From contig JAFXJK010000021.1 of NCBI GenBank assembly GCA_017532355.1, positions 1 through 8,008 on the forward strand: a DNA stretch of 8,008 nt. The letters are read 5' to 3'. Made by a program: the position numbers and the translations under genes. The notes under the pieces are model-generated. The model did no database searches, was not told the origin of the DNA, and saw only the letters and a program-made list of their open reading frames with translations. The stretch is from Oscillospiraceae bacterium. Its GTDB lineage: Bacteria; Bacillota_A; Clostridia; Oscillospirales; JAAYXM01. The first letter of the stretch is position 1. Every line of letters starts with the position of its first letter. Shown here piece by piece: positions 1 to 8,008 of this stretch.

Positions 1-729
1 GAGGAAACTCTCCTGAAGTGCCCGACGAAAGAGGATATGGACAAGCTTATTGCGGCAGGAGAGGGGAATCTCCGTGTTATTGCGATAGCGCCTGAGATTG
101 AGGGAGCGATTCCTGCTATAAAATATTTTAAAGAAAAGGGCGTCAAGGTTTCGCTCGGTCATTCCGGTGCAACATTTGCCGAGGCAAGTGCAGGGTTTGA
201 GGCAGGCGGTAGCATTGCCGTTCATACATACAACGCAATGCGTGGACTTAACCACCGTGAGCCGGGCTTTCTTGGTGCGAGCCTTATTGCCGATGATGCT
301 TACGGCGAGATTATCTGCGATTTTCTCCACGTAGCGCCCGAGGCTGTCAGAATTGCGCTCAGATGTAAGGGAAAAGATAAAATTGTGTTTATAACCGATT
401 CAATCGTTACGGCAGGTCTTCCTGACGGTGAGTATCTCTCAGGTGCACTTCCGGTTACGGTGAAGGACGGCGTGGCAAGAGCGCATAACGGCGCGCTCGC
501 AGGCTCGTCGCTCCGTATAAACCGTGCTTTCGGAAATGTAGTTGAAACATTGGGAGTATCGGTAGAGGATGCGATGCTCGGCGTTACGAAAAACCCTGCC
601 GAGGCGCTTGGGATGTACGATGAAATCGGCTCGATAGATGTTGGCAAGCGAGCGCACTTTACAGTGCTTGATGACAAGTTCAATGTTGTTATGACAATCG
701 TCAACGGAAATGTTGTTTACAGAGCCTGA
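1..729 (+). CDS. nagA: N-acetylglucosamine-6-phosphate deacetylase, C-terminal part (5' end outside window)
   Basis: Cytoplasmic amidohydrolase that removes acetate from GlcNAc-6-phosphate to give glucosamine-6-phosphate, in amino sugar and peptidoglycan recycling. The frame is open from base 1, before the first internal ATG at 37, so the gene is truncated by the window; about 240 residues are present, and the family is usually near 380. The C-terminal half of the active site is visible: GHSGAT (His codon 160-162), VHTYNAM (His codon 223-225), the DFLHV His (328-330) and the catalytic Asp of FITDS (397-399) followed by AGLPDGEY. The C-terminal AGSSL, NPAEALG and GSIDVGKRAHF blocks are also typical. 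It stops with TGA at 727-729. No terminator follows; the mgtE promoter begins seven bases later. Whether it has any link to the glycosidase-like operon downstream cannot be told: mgtE and an opposite-strand regulator lie between them. The family call is firm. Confidence 0.95.
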   Translation, partial: EETLLKCPTKEDMDKLIAAGEGNLRVIAIAPEIEGAIPAIKYFKEKGVKVSLGHSGATFAEASAGFEAGGSIAVHTYNAMRGLNHREPGFLGASLIADDAYGEIICDFLHVAPEAVRIALRCKGKDKIVFITDSIVTAGLPDGEYLSGALPVTVKDGVARAHNGALAGSSLRINRAFGNVVETLGVSVEDAMLGVTKNPAEALGMYDEIGSIDVGKRAHFTVLDDKFNVVMTIVNGNVVYRA

Positions 730-962: not shown

Positions 963-2312
963 ATGGGAGAGACATCCGCTTCACTTGAAAAAACAATACT
1001 TGCACTTCTCGAAGAGCGGAAATACCCGACACTCAGAGACGTGCTCAACACCATGGCTCCTGCGGACATCGCGATTTTGCTCGATGAGGTTCCGCGCGAG
1101 CGCATGCCACTTCTTTTCAGGCTTCTTACAAAGGAGCTTGCGGCAGAAACATTTGTCGAAATGGATACAGACCTACAGGAAATTCTTATAAAGGGTTTTT
1201 CCGACAGTGAGCTCAAAGAAGTTGTTGACGAGCTTTATGTTGACGATGCGGTTGACATCGTTGAAGAAATGCCGGCAAATGTTGTAAGACGAATTCTCCG
1301 TCAGGCAGACCCTGATATGAGAAAAATGATAAACGAAATCCTCAAATACCCCGATGACTCTGCAGGTAGCCTTATGACGACGGAGTACGTTAACTTCCGT
1401 CCGGATACGACGGTTTCGGAGGCGATACTTCATCTTCGCCGTGCAGGCGTGGATAAGGAAACGATATACACCTGTTACGTTACAGAGCGTGACAGAAAGC
1501 TCACGGGTATCGTTACTGTCCGCCGTCTTCTTATGGCGGATGATGAGGTAGAGATTCGTGATATTATGGAAGAGAATGTTCTTTCGGTAAACACTCTTGA
1601 TGACCGAGAGGACGTTGCAAATCAGTTTGCGAAATACGGTCTTCTCGCGCTTCCTGTTGTTGATAACGAAAGCCGCCTTGTAGGTATCATCACGATCGAC
1701 GATGCTATTGAGGTTATCCGTGAAGAGGCAACAGAAGATATCGAGAAGATGGCGGCTATTACTCCGTCAGATAAGCCGTACCTGAAGACGAGTGCATTCG
1801 AGCTTTTTAAAGCGAGAATTCCGTGGCTTATGCTTCTTATGCTGTCTTCTGCATTCACGAGCCTTATTATAACGAGGTTTGAGTCCGCACTTGCGGCGAC
1901 GGGTGTTCTCGCTGCTTACATCCCGATGCTTATGGGCACGGGCGGTAACTCGGGTAGCCAGTCGTCCGTTGCGATTATCCGAAGTCTTTCGCTTGATGAG
2001 ATTGAGTTTTCGGACATCTTCCGCGTTCAGTGGAAGGAAATTCGCGTTTCCGTGCTTTGCGGTATCGCGCTTGCAGTGGTAAACTTCCTAAAGCTTATGT
2101 TGCTTGACAAAGTCGGAACCATGGTCGCGTTTGTGGTTTCAATCGCGCTTGCGGTTACGGTTTTTACGGCGAAGTTTGTGGGTTGCTCACTTCCGATTCT
2201 TTCAAAGAAGCTGAAGTTTGACCCTGCCGTTATGGCGAGCCCGCTTATCACGACGATTGTTGACTCACTCTCGCTTCTCATTTATTTCTACATCGCATCA
2301 ATATTGTTATAG
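963..2312 (+). CDS. mgtE: Magnesium transporter MgtE
   Basis: Inner-membrane, homodimeric Mg2+ channel/transporter gated by cytosolic Mg2+. The product is 449 residues, the normal family length. Domain order is an MgtE N superhelical domain (about 1-125), a CBS pair (about 135-255; LMTTEYVNFRPDTTVSEA and VLSVNTLDDREDVANQ begin the two repeats), a connecting plug helix, and five membrane segments from about 280. The family signatures are present: PMLMGTGGNSGSQS in the membrane domain and DPAVMASPLITTIVD near the end. D434 of the latter corresponds to the pore Asp (Asp432 in Thermus MgtE). The ATG at 963 is chosen because AAGGAGG at 946-952 sits 10 bases upstream; the frame stays open to an ATG at 918, but that would add residues with no homology and translate through the ribosome binding site. 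It is monocistronic, between its own promoter and the terminator at 2313-2342. Confidence 0.96.
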   Translation: MGETSASLEKTILALLEERKYPTLRDVLNTMAPADIAILLDEVPRERMPLLFRLLTKELAAETFVEMDTDLQEILIKGFSDSELKEVVDELYVDDAVDIVEEMPANVVRRILRQADPDMRKMINEILKYPDDSAGSLMTTEYVNFRPDTTVSEAILHLRRAGVDKETIYTCYVTERDRKLTGIVTVRRLLMADDEVEIRDIMEENVLSVNTLDDREDVANQFAKYGLLALPVVDNESRLVGIITIDDAIEVIREEATEDIEKMAAITPSDKPYLKTSAFELFKARIPWLMLLMLSSAFTSLIITRFESALAATGVLAAYIPMLMGTGGNSGSQSSVAIIRSLSLDEIEFSDIFRVQWKEIRVSVLCGIALAVVNFLKLMLLDKVGTMVAFVVSIALAVTVFTAKFVGCSLPILSKKLKFDPAVMASPLITTIVDSLSLLIYFYIASILL

Positions 2313-2342
2313 AAAGCAGGTGGAAAATCCACCTGCTTTTTT
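2313..2342 (+). terminator. Rho-independent terminator of mgtE, placed between convergent genes
   Basis: A perfect 11 bp stem (AAAGCAGGTGG at 2313-2323 with CCACCTGCTTT at 2329-2339) can extend by one A-T pair to leave a three-base loop, and a run of six T (2337-2342) follows. It starts on the base after the mgtE stop. On the minus strand the same hairpin lies directly after the regulator's stop codon, but its 3' tail (CTTTCTAT) is poor in U, so it may stop that transcript less efficiently. Confidence 0.93.
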
Positions 2343-3213
2343 ACATATTCAGTTTGAGTTTTATCGTATTTAAATATTCCGTAGGGGAGAGACTCTCGTA
2401 GGATTTGAAAATTCTGCTGAAATAATGTATGGATGAAAAACCGACCGCTGCGGAAATCTCTGTGAGATTCATCGTTCCGTCGCGAAGAAGTTCTTTTGCG
2501 CGTTTTATGCGAAGACGGTTTATATAGGTTATCGCGCTTTCTCCATATACTTCCTTGAACGCCTTGCAGAGGGATGTTTTGTTTGTGTTGAAAAGGAAAC
2601 ATAAATCGTCAAGCGTTATCTTTTCCGTGAAGTTATTGTTGACGTAGGAGAAAATCTCTTCTGTTTTTGAATCGGTCTCGACGCTCTTATGCGTGCGCGG
2701 CGGAGCTTCCGTATGGCGGACGAGTTCGATTAAAAACATCTCGAACTTCATCTTCAGAAGCTGGTCAGCACCGAATGGGAAGTCGCGCCGCTTTTTCATA
2801 TCGCGCTGACCGGGGATATCGTAGGGCGGAAGAAAGACCGTGCGCCCTTCCTTTATAACTTCTGTGAGCATCTTTATGAGCTCGTTTGAAAGCGTGTATG
2901 CGCTGTTCGCGAACTTATCGAGCCTTTTGCAGTCGCACTCGAAGCCTATTATTATGACATTTGGAGCTTCATTCTGCGGGCAGGAGAGTGAGTGTGGCTC
3001 ATCTGCACGGTGAATTATAAGCTGTTTGCTGTGAAGTGTTCCCGAAAAGTTTTCGGCGCTTACGTCCATTGTGCCGCTGTCGATGTATATGAGTTCTCTG
3101 AAAGGGTGGCTGTCCTTGAATGTATGGTATTCCTTCACGAATTCAAAGTAATGCAGGTTTGCCATCCGAGAAACCGAAATATCTGTTCTGAATTTTTTTA
3201 GTTTAAATTGCAA
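2341..3213 (-). CDS. AraC-family transcriptional regulator
   Basis: A 290-residue regulator with AraC layout. An N-terminal cupin-like sensor half (about 20-110; HPFRELIYIDSGTM and the HRADEPHSL strand turn) is followed by a linker and a C-terminal DNA-binding domain with two helix-turn-helix units: about 200-224 (LDDLCFLFNTNKTSLCKAFKEVYG) and about 249-272 (LTEISAAVGFSSIHYFSRIF), ending in SPTEYL. The start is TTG at 3213-3211: an in-frame TGA lies nine bases upstream, and GAGGTG (plus-strand 3221-3226) is correctly spaced. The next in-frame ATG would lose 16 residues. It faces away from the M24/ASRT/creatininase operon across 149 bp, the usual arrangement for a local activator of a sugar or nutrient operon, so it probably senses that operon's substrate or a product. 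The effector is unknown. The family call is firm; the regulatory target is inferred from position. Confidence 0.93.
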   Translation of the reverse strand: MQFKLKKFRTDISVSRMANLHYFEFVKEYHTFKDSHPFRELIYIDSGTMDVSAENFSGTLHSKQLIIHRADEPHSLSCPQNEAPNVIIIGFECDCKRLDKFANSAYTLSNELIKMLTEVIKEGRTVFLPPYDIPGQRDMKKRRDFPFGADQLLKMKFEMFLIELVRHTEAPPRTHKSVETDSKTEEIFSYVNNNFTEKITLDDLCFLFNTNKTSLCKAFKEVYGESAITYINRLRIKRAKELLRDGTMNLTEISAAVGFSSIHYFSRIFKSYESLSPTEYLNTIKLKLNM

Positions 3214-3263: not shown

Positions 3264-3321
3264 TGTTTAATATTGTGCAAAAAAGATTTAATATGCTTTA
3301 AATACATAAAGGCAAAAGATT
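3248..3321. promoter_or_regulatory. Candidate operator region between the divergent regulator and operon
   Basis: Two kinds of repeat are visible. A direct repeat GCAAAA(AA)GATT occurs at 3277-3288 and 3312-3321, with the GATT parts 33 bp apart, about three helical turns, so both lie on one face of the DNA; the second copy abuts the operon's -10. An imperfect inverted repeat TTGTATAAT (3248-3256) / ATTGTGCAA (3272-3280), 7 of 9 matching, spans the regulator's -35. AraC proteins often bind direct repeats beside the -35. The sequence is AT-rich, so chance similarity is possible. Confidence 0.35.
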
Positions 3322-3329
3322 GTTATAAT
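3321..3329 (+). promoter_or_regulatory. Extended -10 promoter of the four-gene operon
   Basis: TGTTATAAT combines a perfect TATAAT (3324-3329) with a TGn extension. At a 17-base spacing the -35 position is AATACA (3301-3306), matching only 3 of 6. Start of transcription would be near 3336, with a leader of about 27 nt. A weak -35 beside the repeat at 3312-3321 suits activation by the divergent AraC regulator. Confidence 0.6.
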
Positions 3330-3362: not shown

Positions 3363-4535
3363 ATGAGCAGAATTTGCATACCCGATTGGGAGTATAAGGA
3401 GAGAATCGCCCGTGCGGCAAAGCTCGTTCGAGAAAGGGGACTTGACGTAATGGTCGTTTCGAGTACGGAATCCGACTATGCCAACGCAAGATACTTCAGC
3501 GGTTTCTGGCCGCTTTTTGAGCGTGCAGGCGTCGCCATTTCGGCGAACGGCGACGCGGCTCTTATGGTAGGACCTGAGTGCATAATCTTTGCGCAGGACG
3601 TTGCAAAGATAGATAAGATTTTTTGTCTGCGCGAGTTCCGCGAGTCGGCTGACCCGTCATACCCCGAGCTTTCTGCAAGCACATTCCGCGATGTGTTCCG
3701 AGCAATCGGTGTCAGCGGCGATAAAATCAAGATAGGGCTTGGCAGTTATGTAGAGTGTACTCTCCCGATTTTTGAAGGTCTCAAGGAAAGCTATCCCGAT
3801 GCCGAGATCGTAAAGTGCAATGAGATAATGGTTGAGCTTCGTCAGATTAAGAGCGAAAACGAGCTTGCATGCATTCGTGAGGGATTTCGAATTGTTGACC
3901 TTGCAACGGACGAGGTTATAAGACATTTGAAACCCGGCGTAACAGAGCTTCAGATGGTCGGTATTGCGCAGAGGGTAATTTACGAAGAGGGCGCGGAGTA
4001 CGAAGGTCTTCCGATGTACGTTTTCAGCGAGAAGTCAACAAGCCATGCTATAAGCCGCAGCGGATACAGAACAATAAACAAGGGAGATATTGTTCAGCTC
4101 AACCTTTCTGCAAAGGTTGACGGCTATTCTCCGGCAATCGGTCTTCCTGTTGTTATGGGTAAGCTTGAGGGTGAGAGAAGACGCGTTGTCGAGTTCTGCA
4201 AAACTGCACATGACTGGACTGTGGATAAGCTCAAGGCAGGTGTTCTTGCAAGCGATATCGCAAAAGAATTTTATCAGATGTATGTCGATAATGGCTTCAA
4301 GGACAATTTCGTTTACGGTCCGTGCCACGGTACGGGTATGATAGAGGTCGAAGCTCCGTGGATGGAGACAATAAGCGATTATCCGCTTATGGAGAATATG
4401 ACCTTCCAGGTTGATACATTTATTTCCGGTGATGGATTTGGTGTAAGATGGGAAAAGGGCGTTGCAATCACAAAGGACGGTTGCGAGTCAATGACGGATT
4501 ACTTGAAGAAAGGAATTATAGAGCTCGATGTGTAA
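3363..4535 (+). CDS. Peptidase M24/creatinase-fold hydrolase with substituted metal site
   Basis: A 390-residue cytoplasmic protein with the two-domain creatinase/prolidase layout: creatinase N-type domain (about 10-150) and a pita-bread catalytic domain (about 165-390; ELRQIKSENELACIREG opens it). The family includes Xaa-Pro peptidases, creatinase and DMSP lyase DddP. The five usual metal ligands (Asp, Asp, His, Glu, Glu) read N247, A258, H322 (CHGTG), D351 (FQVDTF) and E364 (GVRWEKG), so both Asp are lost. The upstream His (H228) is kept; it matches the position of the catalytic His of metal-free creatinase. A true aminopeptidase is therefore unlikely; a metal-independent hydrolase or a non-catalytic binding protein fits better. 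The start is ATG 3363, seven bases after AGGAGG (3350-3355); an open frame reaching back to 3255 lacks such a site. First gene of the operon; its end overlaps the ASRT gene by 8 bp, and a creatininase-family gene follows. Confidence 0.85.
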   Translation: MSRICIPDWEYKERIARAAKLVRERGLDVMVVSSTESDYANARYFSGFWPLFERAGVAISANGDAALMVGPECIIFAQDVAKIDKIFCLREFRESADPSYPELSASTFRDVFRAIGVSGDKIKIGLGSYVECTLPIFEGLKESYPDAEIVKCNEIMVELRQIKSENELACIREGFRIVDLATDEVIRHLKPGVTELQMVGIAQRVIYEEGAEYEGLPMYVFSEKSTSHAISRSGYRTINKGDIVQLNLSAKVDGYSPAIGLPVVMGKLEGERRRVVEFCKTAHDWTVDKLKAGVLASDIAKEFYQMYVDNGFKDNFVYGPCHGTGMIEVEAPWMETISDYPLMENMTFQVDTFISGDGFGVRWEKGVAITKDGCESMTDYLKKGIIELDV

Positions 4536-4899
4536 GGCGGTAGGAAAGAAAGTCTGGATTCTTCCCGATTGCGAGCTCCCGAAAGTCGGTGAAGGCGTCG
4601 CAAAGGGGCATGAGTCCGTGATCATAGTAAATGACAGTGAGCGCGATGCAGAAATTTCCGTCAAGCTTTTCTTTACCGATAAAGAGGCACATGATAAAAT
4701 AAAGTGGACGGTAAAGAGCGGAAGAGTGCGCTGTTTCAGAACGAATAATGTCGAAGATATGTGCGGATATGTTGTTCCGCTTGAAACTCAGTATGCTATG
4801 AAGCTTGAGTCGAGTGAGAACATCGTCGTGCAGTACGGCAGACTTGACAATACGCAGGCAAATCTCGCTTTTTATACAACTATGGGGTATGCCGAGTAG
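4528..4899 (+). CDS. ASRT-family (sensory rhodopsin transducer-like) small-molecule-binding protein
   Basis: A 123-residue soluble protein that closely resembles the Anabaena sensory rhodopsin transducer over its full length. Recognisable blocks are VWILPD (9-14), HESVIIVND (28-36), FFTDKE (48-53) and the C-terminal VVQYGRLDNTQA (100-111) ending in TTMGYA. The fold is a beta-sandwich that forms tetramers in characterised members. Homologues are common in bacteria without rhodopsins, and comparative work proposed that they bind small molecules, probably sugars, as sensors or accessory proteins for sugar operons. No rhodopsin gene is seen here, so a photosensory role is not suggested. It begins inside the last codons of the M24 gene (8 bp overlap), indicating translational coupling. 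Its stop TAG overlaps the ribosome binding site of the creatininase-family gene. It might stabilise, deliver to, or sense the substrate of the flanking enzymes; that is inference. Confidence 0.88.
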   Translation: MCKAVGKKVWILPDCELPKVGEGVAKGHESVIIVNDSERDAEISVKLFFTDKEAHDKIKWTVKSGRVRCFRTNNVEDMCGYVVPLETQYAMKLESSENIVVQYGRLDNTQANLAFYTTMGYAE

Positions 4900-4911
4900 G
4901 AGGTTTGGAGA

Positions 4912-5646
4912 ATGTATCTTGATAAATGTTTTCCGCGCGAGGTGGATGCGGCAAAGGAGAGAAGAACGCCCGTTGTTATGGTAGGCGGAACGGTTGAATA
5001 CCACGGTCCTCATTGCGCCTATGGTTGCGATACTCTTATTGCAGAGGGGCTTGTTGCACGACTTGCCCAAAAGAAGGATATAATAATTGCACCAACGGTC
5101 AATTACAGCCCTGCAAGCTTCGCGGTGGCTGATGAAACAAGCGGAACGGTGCATATAGAAGAAGATGTGTTTGAGGCGTATCTTTTTCAGATTTTTATGA
5201 ATATGCTATCGAGTGGACTTCGCAATATCTACGTTGTGATTCACCACCAGTTTGAGCAGGAAAACCTGATGCCGATGACGCTTTCGTATATGAAGGCGGC
5301 AAAGCGCGCAACAATGCGCTATCTTGAGAAAACGCAAGGTAAAGGCTGGTGGGGGAACGAAAATTATGCCACCTACTACGAAAATCTTGGCGGCGGAGAC
5401 GATCCGTTTAGCTGGATAAAGGTAATTCCAACGATGAGTACCGAGGTTCAGAACGCGACGGGTTATGACCACGCAGGCAAATTTGAATGTTCAATTCTTA
5501 TGGCGCTTTATCCGGAAGCAGTAAAGCTTGAGCGACTTTCCGATATAAAGCATTGGTTTACGGAAAGTGCCGCCGGGGCAAACAAAGAACTCGGCGATGA
5601 GATGGTACGTCTCTCGCTTGAATATTTAGAAGAGAAGATAAAATAG
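4912..5646 (+). CDS. Creatininase-family amidohydrolase
   Basis: A 244-residue cytoplasmic metalloenzyme of the creatinine amidohydrolase family, whose members hydrolyse lactam or amide bonds (creatininase, the formamide hydrolase ArfB, the mycofactocin peptidase MftE). The signature GGTVEYHGPH then D40 supplies E29, H31 and D40, the standard metal ligands. The next motif, usually NGHGGN or GHYEN, is here IHHQFEQEN (110-118): H111/H112 and E115 could serve as ligands but the form is unusual. H187 and E192 in DHAGKFECS keep the five-residue spacing of the catalytic His178/Glu183 of Pseudomonas creatininase. Trp at 146, 147 and 168 may line the pocket. The ATG at 4912 has AGGAGG at 4898-4903, overlapping the previous stop. 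The next gene starts 11 bp after this one ends, and its ribosome binding site AGAGGT overlaps this stop. The substrate is unknown; creatinine itself is only one option. Confidence 0.9.
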   Translation: MYLDKCFPREVDAAKERRTPVVMVGGTVEYHGPHCAYGCDTLIAEGLVARLAQKKDIIIAPTVNYSPASFAVADETSGTVHIEEDVFEAYLFQIFMNMLSSGLRNIYVVIHHQFEQENLMPMTLSYMKAAKRATMRYLEKTQGKGWWGNENYATYYENLGGGDDPFSWIKVIPTMSTEVQNATGYDHAGKFECSILMALYPEAVKLERLSDIKHWFTESAAGANKELGDEMVRLSLEYLEEKIK

Positions 5647-5656
5647 AGGTAAGTTT

Positions 5657-7762
5657 ATGGGTGTTGAAAAAGCATACACATTCAGAGAAAGACTGCTCAC
5701 GGTTCACGAGAAGAATGTCCGTGATTTTTCAGTAGTTGCGGTGGACGATGAGTTTTGCCTTGCGGATGAAGTGATTATCGGAATCGGGGAAGATGCAAGC
5801 GAGGTAGTAAAGTTTGCTGCAGAAGATTTTGTAGATTTTCTTGCGGTTTCGATGAATATAAAGGCAAGTATTTCGGGTGATGTTAAGGCGGATATCTCGC
5901 TTAAAATAGCAAATGAGACGGCTCGGCTTCGAGAAGCAGACGGGTACAAAGGCTTCTTTATAAATGTCTCGGACGGGATCGAGATCTACGGTGCGGACGA
6001 GCGCGGCGTCGCGGCGGCACTTTATTACATAGAAGACCTTATGTGTATGAAAAAAGCACCCATACTCGCGCGTGGAGAGATCAGAAAAAAGCCGATGCTG
6101 TCACCTCGGATGGTTCATTCGGGATATGCACTTGACGATTATCCTGACGAATATCTCACGAGAATTGCCCACGAGGGAAGAGATGCGATTCTCATCTTTG
6201 CGTGGGACATTAACAAAACACATCTTGGACATCTTGATTTCAACGACCTTATCGCGCGTGCCAAGGTACGCGGGATAGATGTCTATGCTTACAGCTTCTT
6301 TATTGGTGGTCCGCACCCCGACGAGGAGGGAGCATATGAGTATTACGATAATACTTACGGGCGTCTTTTCAGGGAATGTCCCGATCTTCGCGGTGTTACC
6401 TTCGTTGGCGAGGTTGTGGAATTTCAGAGCCGAGACCCTCACGTTTCAAAATTCCGTTGCCGCGATACGGTGACGGATGACCTTCCTGACGGCAAACCGT
6501 GGCCGGGGTGGTATCCGTGCGAAGACTGGCCAAAGTGGCTCTCTCTTGTTGAAAAAGTCATACATAACGCAAAGCCTTCTGCCGATATAGTTATGTGGAG
6601 CTATAATTGGGGATATCAGTCTGAGGATGCAAGAGTGAGCCTTATTGAGAATATGCCCGAAAATGTAACTCTCCAGGCGACATTTGAAATGTTCGATAAC
6701 AGAAAAACAGAAGATGTCGTCACCGCGGTTTCAGATTATTCACTTTCGTATGTCGGTCCGGGACCGTACTTTGTGAGCGAGGCGAAAGCTGCCGCGCGGC
6801 GCGGAATAAAGTTTTATGCACAGACGCAGGCGGCGGGGGTCACCTGGGACTTTGGTGTAATCCCGTATCTTCCGATGCCGCAGCAATGGCTTGCGCGTTT
6901 TGAAAAGATGCGAGAGGCAAATCGCGATTGGGGATTCTGCGGTGGTATGGAAAATCACCACCATGGCTTTTATCCGTCAATTATTTCAAAATTCTCCCAT
7001 CATGCATTTTTGGAGCCATTAGAGCCGCTTGACGAGCTTCTCTCAAAGCTTCTTGCCGCAGAATACGGCGCGGAGAATCTTGAAAAAGTAAGCCTTGCGT
7101 TTGAGTTATGGAGTAAAGCTATTTCACATTACACACCGTCGGAGGGCGATTTCAGCGGTGCCGCGAGAATCGGGCCTGCGTATCCGTTCTGTCTCTTTTA
7201 TCAGGCAAAGCCGCCTCGTGATGAGAGCGCATTTTTCGGGATTGATATATTCTTAACGGAATATGCAACGGGTATGGAGCATTCCGTGTTCATCAGTGCA
7301 CCACCGCGTGAAAATTTCATCAGTATGAGAATATGCCCTGAACTACGATCGCTTAAGACGATGCATTCGCTTATGAAACAGGGGATAGAGGTTTTTGAGT
7401 CAATAGAGAATAAGAACGAAAAGCTTCTTTCGGTAATAAACCTCGGAAAGTTCATAACCTGTTCTGTGCTTACCAACATCCATGCAAAAGAGTGGTACAT
7501 ACTTAAGCGTAAGCTCTATGCGGAGGAAGAAAGAGAGGCTCTTCTCAAAATCGTTTCGGACATGGAGAAACTTCTCCTTGATGAGATTGAGAATGCAAGA
7601 GAGGCACTTCCGCTCGTCGATTTTGATTCACGTCTCGGTTGGGAGCCTACAATGAATTACCTTGGCGACCGCGAGCATATCGAGTGGAAAATCCGTCAGG
7701 TAAAATATGTCCTTGAAAAGGAAATGGTTAAGCTTCGGAAATCAATAGAGCTTGAAATGTAG
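5657..7762 (+). CDS. Putative intracellular glycoside hydrolase with GH20/GH67-type N-terminal domain
   Basis: A 701-residue protein without signal peptide or membrane segment. Residues about 35-145 look like the alpha/beta domain that precedes the barrel in GH20, GH67 and GH84 enzymes; the strand-turn-strand GFFINVSDGIEIYGADERG (99-117) then an AALYYIEDL helix is characteristic. A probable TIM barrel follows (about 150-450), with barrel-like strands at RDAILIFAW, VRGIDVYAYSFF, GVTFVGEVVEF, ADIVMWSYNWG and GIKFYAQTQAAG. E252 and E255 in FVGEVVEF lie where GH20 enzymes carry their catalytic acid pair, but the GH20 HxGGDE motif is absent. MENHHHG (431-437) is another possible active-site segment. 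The C-terminal 250 residues look mainly helical. It is the last gene of the operon, with its ribosome binding site on the previous stop, and has a tandem paralogue downstream. I cannot assign a CAZy family; a non-hydrolytic role is possible. Confidence 0.6.
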   Translation: MGVEKAYTFRERLLTVHEKNVRDFSVVAVDDEFCLADEVIIGIGEDASEVVKFAAEDFVDFLAVSMNIKASISGDVKADISLKIANETARLREADGYKGFFINVSDGIEIYGADERGVAAALYYIEDLMCMKKAPILARGEIRKKPMLSPRMVHSGYALDDYPDEYLTRIAHEGRDAILIFAWDINKTHLGHLDFNDLIARAKVRGIDVYAYSFFIGGPHPDEEGAYEYYDNTYGRLFRECPDLRGVTFVGEVVEFQSRDPHVSKFRCRDTVTDDLPDGKPWPGWYPCEDWPKWLSLVEKVIHNAKPSADIVMWSYNWGYQSEDARVSLIENMPENVTLQATFEMFDNRKTEDVVTAVSDYSLSYVGPGPYFVSEAKAAARRGIKFYAQTQAAGVTWDFGVIPYLPMPQQWLARFEKMREANRDWGFCGGMENHHHGFYPSIISKFSHHAFLEPLEPLDELLSKLLAAEYGAENLEKVSLAFELWSKAISHYTPSEGDFSGAARIGPAYPFCLFYQAKPPRDESAFFGIDIFLTEYATGMEHSVFISAPPRENFISMRICPELRSLKTMHSLMKQGIEVFESIENKNEKLLSVINLGKFITCSVLTNIHAKEWYILKRKLYAEEEREALLKIVSDMEKLLLDEIENAREALPLVDFDSRLGWEPTMNYLGDREHIEWKIRQVKYVLEKEMVKLRKSIELEM

Positions 7763-7764
7763 CG

Positions 7765-7796
7765 AAAAGGAGGAGACTGTCGTCTCCTCCTTTTTT
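7765..7796 (+). terminator. Rho-independent terminator ending the operon
   Basis: GGAGGAGAC (7769-7777) pairs perfectly with GTCTCCTCC (7782-7790) across a TGTC loop; four A on the 5' side pair with the first of six T (7791-7796). It lies three bases after the stop codon of the glycosidase-like gene, so the paralogue downstream is not simply the fifth gene of the operon. Confidence 0.95.
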
Positions 7797-7812
7797 GGTC
7801 GGAAAATGCCAC

Positions 7813-7860: not shown

Positions 7861-7872
7861 GGGGTGATAATG

Positions 7873-8008
7873 ATGAAAGTTGAAAACGCATACGACTTTA
7901 GAAAAAAACTTTTTACGGTTCACGAAAATGATGTAAGAAAATTTAACTTAAATACAAAGACGGAAGAGCTTGAGATTTGCGACGTTGTTGTTATCGAAAT
8001 AGGCACTA
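7873..8008 (+). CDS. Paralogue of the glycosidase-like protein, N-terminal part (3' end outside window)
   Basis: The 45 visible residues begin MKVENAYDFRKKLFTVHE and match the start of the 701-residue protein (MGVEKAYTFRERLLTVHE): 15 of the first 26 residues are identical. The frame is open to the window edge. Two adjacent ATGs exist (7870 and 7873); 7873 is preferred because it aligns exactly with the paralogue's start and sits eight bases after AGGGG (7860-7864), but 7870 is possible. The gene lies past a strong terminator and has its own candidate promoter and inverted repeat, so the two copies can be expressed separately. What follows the first 45 residues cannot be known here, but a full-length tandem duplicate that has since diverged is the likeliest reading. 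Confidence 0.85.
   Translation, partial: MKVENAYDFRKKLFTVHENDVRKFNLNTKTEELEICDVVVIEIGT

Follow-up and report, generated by a model that had tools for sequence, protein, structure and literature searches.

The window, an 8,008-nucleotide stretch of DNA from an Oscillospiraceae bacterium (assembly GCA_017532355.1, contig JAFXJK010000021.1), carries four tightly packed genes on one strand, encoding a creatinase-fold protein of peptidase family M24, an ASRT protein, a creatininase-like protein and a glycosidase-like protein of 701 amino acids (aa), and a divergent gene for an AraC-family regulator faces them (Table 1). The M24 and ASRT genes overlap by 8 bp. The TAG stop codon of the ASRT gene (4897-4899) merges into TAGGAGG ahead of the ATG of the creatininase-like gene, and that of the creatininase-like gene (5644-5646) merges into TAGAGG ahead of the ATG of the glycosidase-like gene. 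This packing and the facing regulator had been described in an earlier note made from the DNA letters, and both were confirmed from the open reading frames and the sequence. The note's family calls of creatinase fold, creatininase fold, ASRT and AraC were all above the Pfam cut-offs, with 91.6 bits against 23 for Peptidase_M24 (Creatinase_N was also above its cut-off), 103.7 against 31.3 for PF02633, 102.9 against 25 for PF07100 and 70.5 against 33.6 for HTH_18. Folding of positions 7763-7802 gave a 14-pair hairpin with a T run at its 3' side (-22.2 kcal/mol, z -4.2). Because this hairpin stands at the 3' side of the four same-strand genes, they are probably one transcription unit with its own end. 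Folding of positions 2309-2350 gave another hairpin (-20.8 kcal/mol, z -7.9). Neither hairpin was picked up by a general promoter and terminator scan of the window, in which the numbers of both kinds of element were those expected by chance.

Table 1. Features of the window, with the operon and its control region first
Feature	Position	Strand	Basis or remark
M24 gene	3363-4535	+	Open reading frame list; Peptidase_M24 and Creatinase_N over Pfam cut-off; metal site degenerate
ASRT gene, small beta-sandwich, predicted sugar binder	4528-4899	+	PF07100; passages of PMC2739507
Creatininase-like gene, candidate metal ligands conserved	4912-5646	+	PF02633
Glycosidase-like gene, 701 aa, GH67/GH138-type predicted fold	5657-7762	+	Open reading frame; structure model
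AraC-family regulator gene, TTG start, divergent	2341-3213	-	HTH_18
41-bp operator, predicted	3266-3306	+	Two direct repeats in a 21-bp register; motif scoring
-10 element TATAAT	3324-3329	+	Read from sequence; 17 bp past the operator
Hairpin and T run, probable intrinsic terminator	7764-7795	+	RNA folding
Hairpin between mgtE and AraC genes	2311-2341		RNA folding
mgtE magnesium transporter gene, complete	963-2312	+	Upstream of the AraC gene
NagA gene, 3' end	1-729	+	TIGR00221, 199 bits on the fragment
Second relative of the 701-aa protein, start only	7870-8008	+	Past the hairpin at 7764-7795

Relatives were sought in 199 genomes (G001 included), 30 of which encode an M24 protein of at least 58% identity. 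Linkage was scored on the same strand around the M24 gene, within 1 kb for the ASRT gene and within 3 kb for the creatininase-like gene. Because 13 of the 43 relative loci had been fetched through a creatininase-like match, the count was restricted to the 30 M24-seeded loci. Both partners were present in 22 of these, the creatininase-like gene alone in three, the ASRT gene alone in two and neither in three, so that at least one partner was kept in 27. Two of the three loci with neither partner (L035 and L041) stop at a contig edge, and the third (L038) has a DUF4432 gene next. Among 17 creatininase-seeded loci from the class sample, 12 have a close M24 gene on the same strand, L133 has a convergent one and four have none. 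The gene order is M24-ASRT-creatininase in most loci, ASRT-M24-creatininase in L039 and L135, creatininase-ASRT-M24 in L132 and creatininase-M24 in L137; L037 and L137 have no ASRT gene at the locus. The linkage of the trio survives these changes of order, across M24 identities of 63 to 91%, and the pairwise identities of the three proteins co-vary (Spearman 0.66 to 0.77).

At identity cut-offs set by eye (about 58% for M24, 54% for creatininase-like, 47% for ASRT and 37% for glycosidase-like proteins), the creatininase-like protein occurs in 27 genomes, ASRT in 24 and the glycosidase-like protein in 12, and all of these fall within the 30 genomes with M24. These cut-offs left out 20 of 47 matching genomes for the creatininase-like protein, 25 of 49 for ASRT and 15 of 27 for the glycosidase-like protein, including genomes without a close M24 protein (G089 at 44%, G113 at 45%, and G102, G184, G189 and G191, respectively). 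A creatininase-like gene was found in 28 of 391 genomes of the class sample (E up to 1e-20) and in 2 of 378 genomes of the phylum sample (E up to 1e-30), one of the two being G001. A scan of genome contigs gave only L001, where a relative of the 701-aa protein stands alone; in the genome of that locus (G001), an M24 gene (87%) lies beside a creatininase-like gene (77%) with an AraC gene facing and no ASRT gene there. As judged from these gene neighbourhoods, the M24-ASRT-creatininase trio is a conserved core unit. The co-occurrence of the four families raised in the earlier note was thereby borne out for the trio, and the glycosidase-like gene proved variable.

In 22 of 43 relative loci, an AraC homologue (27 to 58% identity) is encoded on the strand opposite to M24, no farther than 4.5 kb away to one side or the other. 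With up to two mismatches, the top 12-base word from motif discovery in the window and eleven AraC-facing loci occurred in 11 of 12 sequences, where 20 shuffles reached 5 to 10 of 12; inspection by eye showed a longer 41-bp motif common to all 12 loci, which was scored afterwards. The predicted operator in the window matches the consensus at 37 of 41 positions, and its AAATACA end occupies the -35 position. Of 43 relative loci, 27 have at least 30 matches, and a TATAAT-like element occurs at about the same spacing in the displayed loci of this class. Shuffled sequences (220) reached 25 matches at most. Because other real stretches, with further operators excluded, reached 28 of 41, a threshold of 26 was too lax; only matches of at least 30 were counted, and L128 (26) was dropped. 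Class II AraC activators contact RNA polymerase from direct-repeat sites over the -35 position. From this arrangement of sequences, we infer that the AraC regulator binds the 41-bp site.

In 35 genomes selected because they carry M24 or creatininase-like genes, a search that tolerated three mismatches returned 39 operator sites, spread over 30 of the genomes; the reversed pattern gave no site. Sites were assigned to genes from their coordinates. Twenty-nine lie just before an M24 gene or M24 fragment, two of these in one genome at overlapping contig ends. Because the pattern came from M24 sites, only the other ten are independent evidence. One of them precedes a DUF4432-M24-creatininase-DUF4432-NagB-NagA run in L126, with 140 bp between the second DUF4432 gene and NagB. 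Seven of the remaining nine precede GH3, GHL6, DUF2961, DUF4432 or secreted-protein genes, namely GH3 in the near-identical loci of G073 and G036, GHL6 in G034, DUF2961 in G066, DUF4432 in G221, an SLH-GH16 protein in G146 and an 880-aa protein with a signal-like start in G172. DUF4432 proteins are mutarotase-like. The last two are a site before a 167-aa open reading frame in G013 and a second G221 site without a clear target. In G146, NagB-type, NagA and DUF4838 genes stand ahead of the site on the same strand. The AraC regulator is more than a neighbour, since the shared operator outlines a regulon. Because the operator is shared, the activator role of AraC and the glycan regulon are the best-supported statements of this analysis.

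The genes around the trio were also examined. They include DUF4432, GH3 and Antibiotic_NAT genes; GH38; divergent GH42 and DUF2264; GH1; a sugar-type ABC transporter with LacI and an M20 peptidase; PIG-L, AP_endonuc_2 and Gfo/Idh/MocA; and PL8 with an ABC transporter, NagB-type, SASA and GH2 genes. GH3, GH38 or GH1 follows the trio in other loci, and Gfo/Idh/MocA and AP_endonuc_2 genes flank it in L125. The NagA proteins of L126 and L183 pass TIGR00221 (261.3 and 234.5 bits against 225.65). Among these neighbours, NagA, NagB-type, PIG-L, SASA and PL8 suggest glycans that contain an N-acetylhexosamine. The sugar reading of the earlier note is in general supported, as both the neighbours and the operator sites place the trio in a context of carbohydrate (amino-sugar) use. 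At two loci (L064, 982-1773; L073, 6726-7532), an Antibiotic_NAT gene of the aminoglycoside 3-N-acetyltransferase family lies between the ASRT and creatininase-like genes, and by context its product is perhaps a sugar acyltransferase. At L133 (6239-9459), nucleotidyltransferase and APH-type kinase genes precede M24, and the creatininase-like gene is convergent.

The M24 protein is unlikely to be an ordinary metallopeptidase because some of its metal ligands are lost in the alignment. Ligand positions were read off an alignment to 2zsg, and the five metal ligands of the family are those that we take to be D, D, H, E and E. In 44 M24 sequences, the two Asp positions hold N247 (Asn in 39, Gln in 5) and A258 (Ala in 26, Ser in 18), and a Glu position is D351 in all 44; H322 and E364 are kept in all 44. 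The window protein therefore fails the five-ligand test for M24 metallopeptidases. H228 is present in 39 of 44 sequences and is Gln in five paralogues of 38 to 40% identity; it may correspond to the catalytic His of creatinase (His232), an enzyme that also binds its substrate through Glu residues. The protein is nearer to aminopeptidase P and prolidase (4.9e-25) than to creatinase (2.2e-12). Few M24 relatives have a source-given name, and it is either 'aminopeptidase P family protein' or 'Xaa-Pro aminopeptidase', in contrast with the degenerate metal site and the glycan-pointing operator sites. The paralogous M24 proteins (38 to 40%; L044, L045, L046, L047 and L048) form a sister module, with a second ASRT type in L046 and L047, a phosphotriesterase-family protein in L044, L047 and L048, and a 267-aa protein without a Pfam match in L044 and L045. 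In L043 (1149-2322, G012:C122), the M24 frame is in two pieces, through a frameshift or an assembly error.

The creatininase-like protein failed the curated cut-offs of creatininase proper (TIGR04448, 63.3 bits against 235) and of IolN (NF041098, 51.8 bits against 245). IolN is one of three NCBIfam families that it matches, and for the L039 homologue it is the top-scoring family (68.6 bits). E29, H31, D40, H112 and E115 are identical in at least 97% of 48 sequences. The first three align with creatininase, whose metal ligands we take to be Glu, His, Asp, His and Glu, and H112 and E115 were placed by motif, E115 being one residue out of register. The protein thus keeps a candidate metal site, and its conservation is consistent with a working one. 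Standalone ASRT proteins are predicted to be sugar-binding, with the pocket signature SHExxCxxN, in the relevant passages of PMC2739507. The window protein does not match this signature. The pocket His is retained: G27, H28, E29 and N35 occur in 37 of 37 ASRT sequences, and position 32 is Ile in 34, Met in two and Val in one, in place of the signature Cys.

For the 701-aa protein, no Pfam family (GH67 and PF02838 included) and no PDB chain was found by sequence at E up to 1, and no signal peptide was seen by eye. Its predicted fold (predicted local distance difference test score, pLDDT, 93) resembles GH138, GH67, GH115 and GH84, which makes the earlier GH20/GH67-like guess a good one. The sequence-profile match to GH67 is weak (probability 14%, E 0.0019, residues 45-315 only), and for GH20 (PF02838) the homologue P0109 is barely over the cut-off (27.0 against 26.1). 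E252, E344 and D398 are invariant in 64 sequences and lie near strand ends of the model, where they are candidate catalytic acids. The gene lies near M24 in 5 of 43 loci and is solo in L001. In the window, L037 and L039, it is the next gene after the creatininase-like one, and in L137 it lies upstream with a LacI gene in between; a relative of 901 aa lies downstream in L068, and L073 has a divergent one of 903 aa. In L074, L075, L076 and L077, it is paired with distant creatininase-like proteins (39 to 45%) without M24. Elsewhere it is found near NagA-like genes (L049, L051, L085 and L090) and a NagB-type gene (L090), and it is flanked by Gfo/Idh/MocA and AP_endonuc_2 genes in L051, L082 and L085 (L085 by clustering). 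The glycosidase-like gene is a recurrent yet replaceable operon partner, and the four genes are not the fixed set that had been supposed. Because it is not a fixed member, part of what the earlier note held to speak against its own reading, that the four genes are not kept together in related genomes, was in fact found.

On balance, we lean towards reading the whole as an AraC-activated catabolic operon for an N-acetylhexosamine-containing glycan or glycoconjugate. We have good confidence in the regulon and the sugar class, taken jointly; the sequence of steps and the reactions given below for the two core enzymes, again taken jointly, are rather unlikely to be right. The AraC regulator would bind the 41-bp site and activate the operon, and an oligosaccharide or glycoconjugate would be imported and cleaved in the cytoplasm by the strain's own glycosidase (here the 701-aa protein). 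The creatininase-like metalloenzyme would hydrolyze the released amino sugar, or an oxidized form of it, at an amide or ring bond, a step proposed because the creatininase fold keeps its metal ligands. The creatinase reaction is a metal-free step. The M24 protein would likewise perform a metal-free second hydrolysis or elimination, proposed because its fold is metal-stripped. ASRT would bind the sugar as a sensor or carrier, and the products would reach glycolysis via NagA and NagB. Tentatively, the trio could be a catabolic module not yet on record, in which an N-acylated or N-glycosidic amino-sugar intermediate is processed in successive steps by a metal-free enzyme of creatinase fold and a metallohydrolase of creatininase fold, with ASRT as the sugar-binding partner. 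The intermediate might be an N-acetylglucosamine-amide left from glycoproteins or an amino-sugar lactam, and gut Clostridia would then have re-used the two-step logic of creatinine for glycans, a speculation with a limited chance of being correct. The amide- or lactam-containing sugar conjugate of the earlier note is a guess that fits the metal-keeping creatininase and metal-stripped creatinase-like folds.

Several points weigh against the glycan-operon reading. The operator pattern was built from M24 sites and its search was confined to genomes selected for M24 or creatininase-like genes, which makes the 29 M24 sites in part an expected outcome; near-duplicate genomes carry identical M24 sites (G036/G073, G137/G164 and G016/G020), and 5 of the 35 genomes have no site. 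The operator is absent directly upstream in the eight M24 loci below 70% identity, and also upstream of M24 in L061, L065, L124, L125 and L126; L126 carries it before DUF4432 instead, and L128 falls below the threshold. The co-occurrence p values (2e-30 to 1.5e-11) are naive, with kinship ignored. The NagB candidates are under the TIGR00502 cut-off (129.8, 121.8 and 111.4 bits against 236.9), and the NagA gene of the window is outside the unit, separated from it by mgtE, a hairpin and the AraC gene. Transporters, on which the earlier note had wanted a survey, occur at some loci as ABC systems, and no transporter is a constant partner of the trio. The enzymes encoded next to the trio differ widely in type (mannosidase, galactosidase, hyaluronate-type lyase and others). 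Because GH38, GH42, GH1 and others are mixed with amino-sugar neighbours, the common substrate is putative and may be something other than an amino sugar.

One alternative is the ring opening of a keto-sugar or cyclitol, in which the creatininase-like enzyme would act like IolN (3-dehydro-scyllo-inosose hydrolase) and split an oxidized sugar ring made by Gfo/Idh/MocA dehydrogenases, and M24 would act on the product. The IolN matches and the Gfo/Idh/MocA and AP_endonuc_2 genes that flank both the trio and the glycosidase-like gene speak for it. However, the IolN cut-off is far off, and many same-strand runs consist of the trio, DUF4432 or glycosidase only (neighbours were partly scanned), and we regard this alternative as rather improbable. 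Peptidoglycan salvage is less probable still. Here a NagZ-type GH3 would free a muramic derivative, the creatininase-like enzyme would open the muramic delta-lactam, an acetyltransferase-like protein would re-acetylate it, and M24 would trim the peptide or lactate. This is consistent with the Antibiotic_NAT genes of L064 and L073 and, on our assumption of what the motif means, with the DSH motif of a GH3 protein encoded next to the trio in L054, but the GH38, GH42, GH1, PL8, SASA and GHL6 partners misfit and M24 is without the peptidase metal ligands. That the genes are merely co-transcribed bystanders of unrelated function, as the frequent occurrence of the glycosidase-like gene elsewhere might suggest, is very unlikely given the persistent trio linkage and the shared operator; bystander status is disfavoured for the trio and possible for the glycosidase-like gene. 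True degradation of creatinine via creatine to sarcosine, doubted in the earlier note, is hardly credible despite the joint presence of both folds, as the TIGR04448 miss, the affinity of M24 for aminopeptidase P and prolidase and the glycan-type genes behind the non-trio operator sites bear out.

The favoured glycan operon was compared with known systems. As in the ASRT-associated sugar operons described in parts of De Souza, Iyer and Aravind 2009 (PMC2739507), a lone intracellular ASRT stands among sugar enzymes or a monosaccharide transporter. The partners given in those passages are isomerase, aldolase, kinase, dehydratase, amylase or ABC genes, whereas the window ASRT is joined by creatininase-like and M24 proteins and the signature Cys is replaced, mostly by Ile. 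A term search of the main text gave no words beginning with creatininase, peptidase or M24; one passage names an inactive zincin-like metallopeptidase beside an actinobacterial cell-surface ASRT family. The operon resembles the creatininase/creatinase pathway in having both folds in one unit, and differs from it in the missed equivalog cut-off, the closeness of M24 to other M24 proteins and the glycan-gene context. It shares with IolN a creatininase fold placed on carbohydrate, at a score far below the IolN cut-off. The 701-aa protein has 11 to 15% identity to GH67 alpha-glucuronidase and GH138, its likeness in fold being taken from the model. The direct repeats over the -35 position resemble class II AraC promoters, the binding here being predicted, and neither the regulator nor its operator sequence was matched to any described AraC system. 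The 41-bp operator is reported as new in this analysis. Among the matches listed in the open-licence PMC literature, no paper treats the creatininase-M24-ASRT combination.

If this reading is true, a common, unread piece of Clostridia metabolism becomes testable, with the operator as a handle on the inducer and on further regulon members, and the trio as a handle on the role of standalone ASRT proteins. Past the probable terminator, the first 46 residues of the truncated product resemble P0006, which has 69% identity to the window 701-aa protein. For P0006 and for P0001 (99% to the window protein), the longest contig is given as 23180, and their genes may be neighbours.

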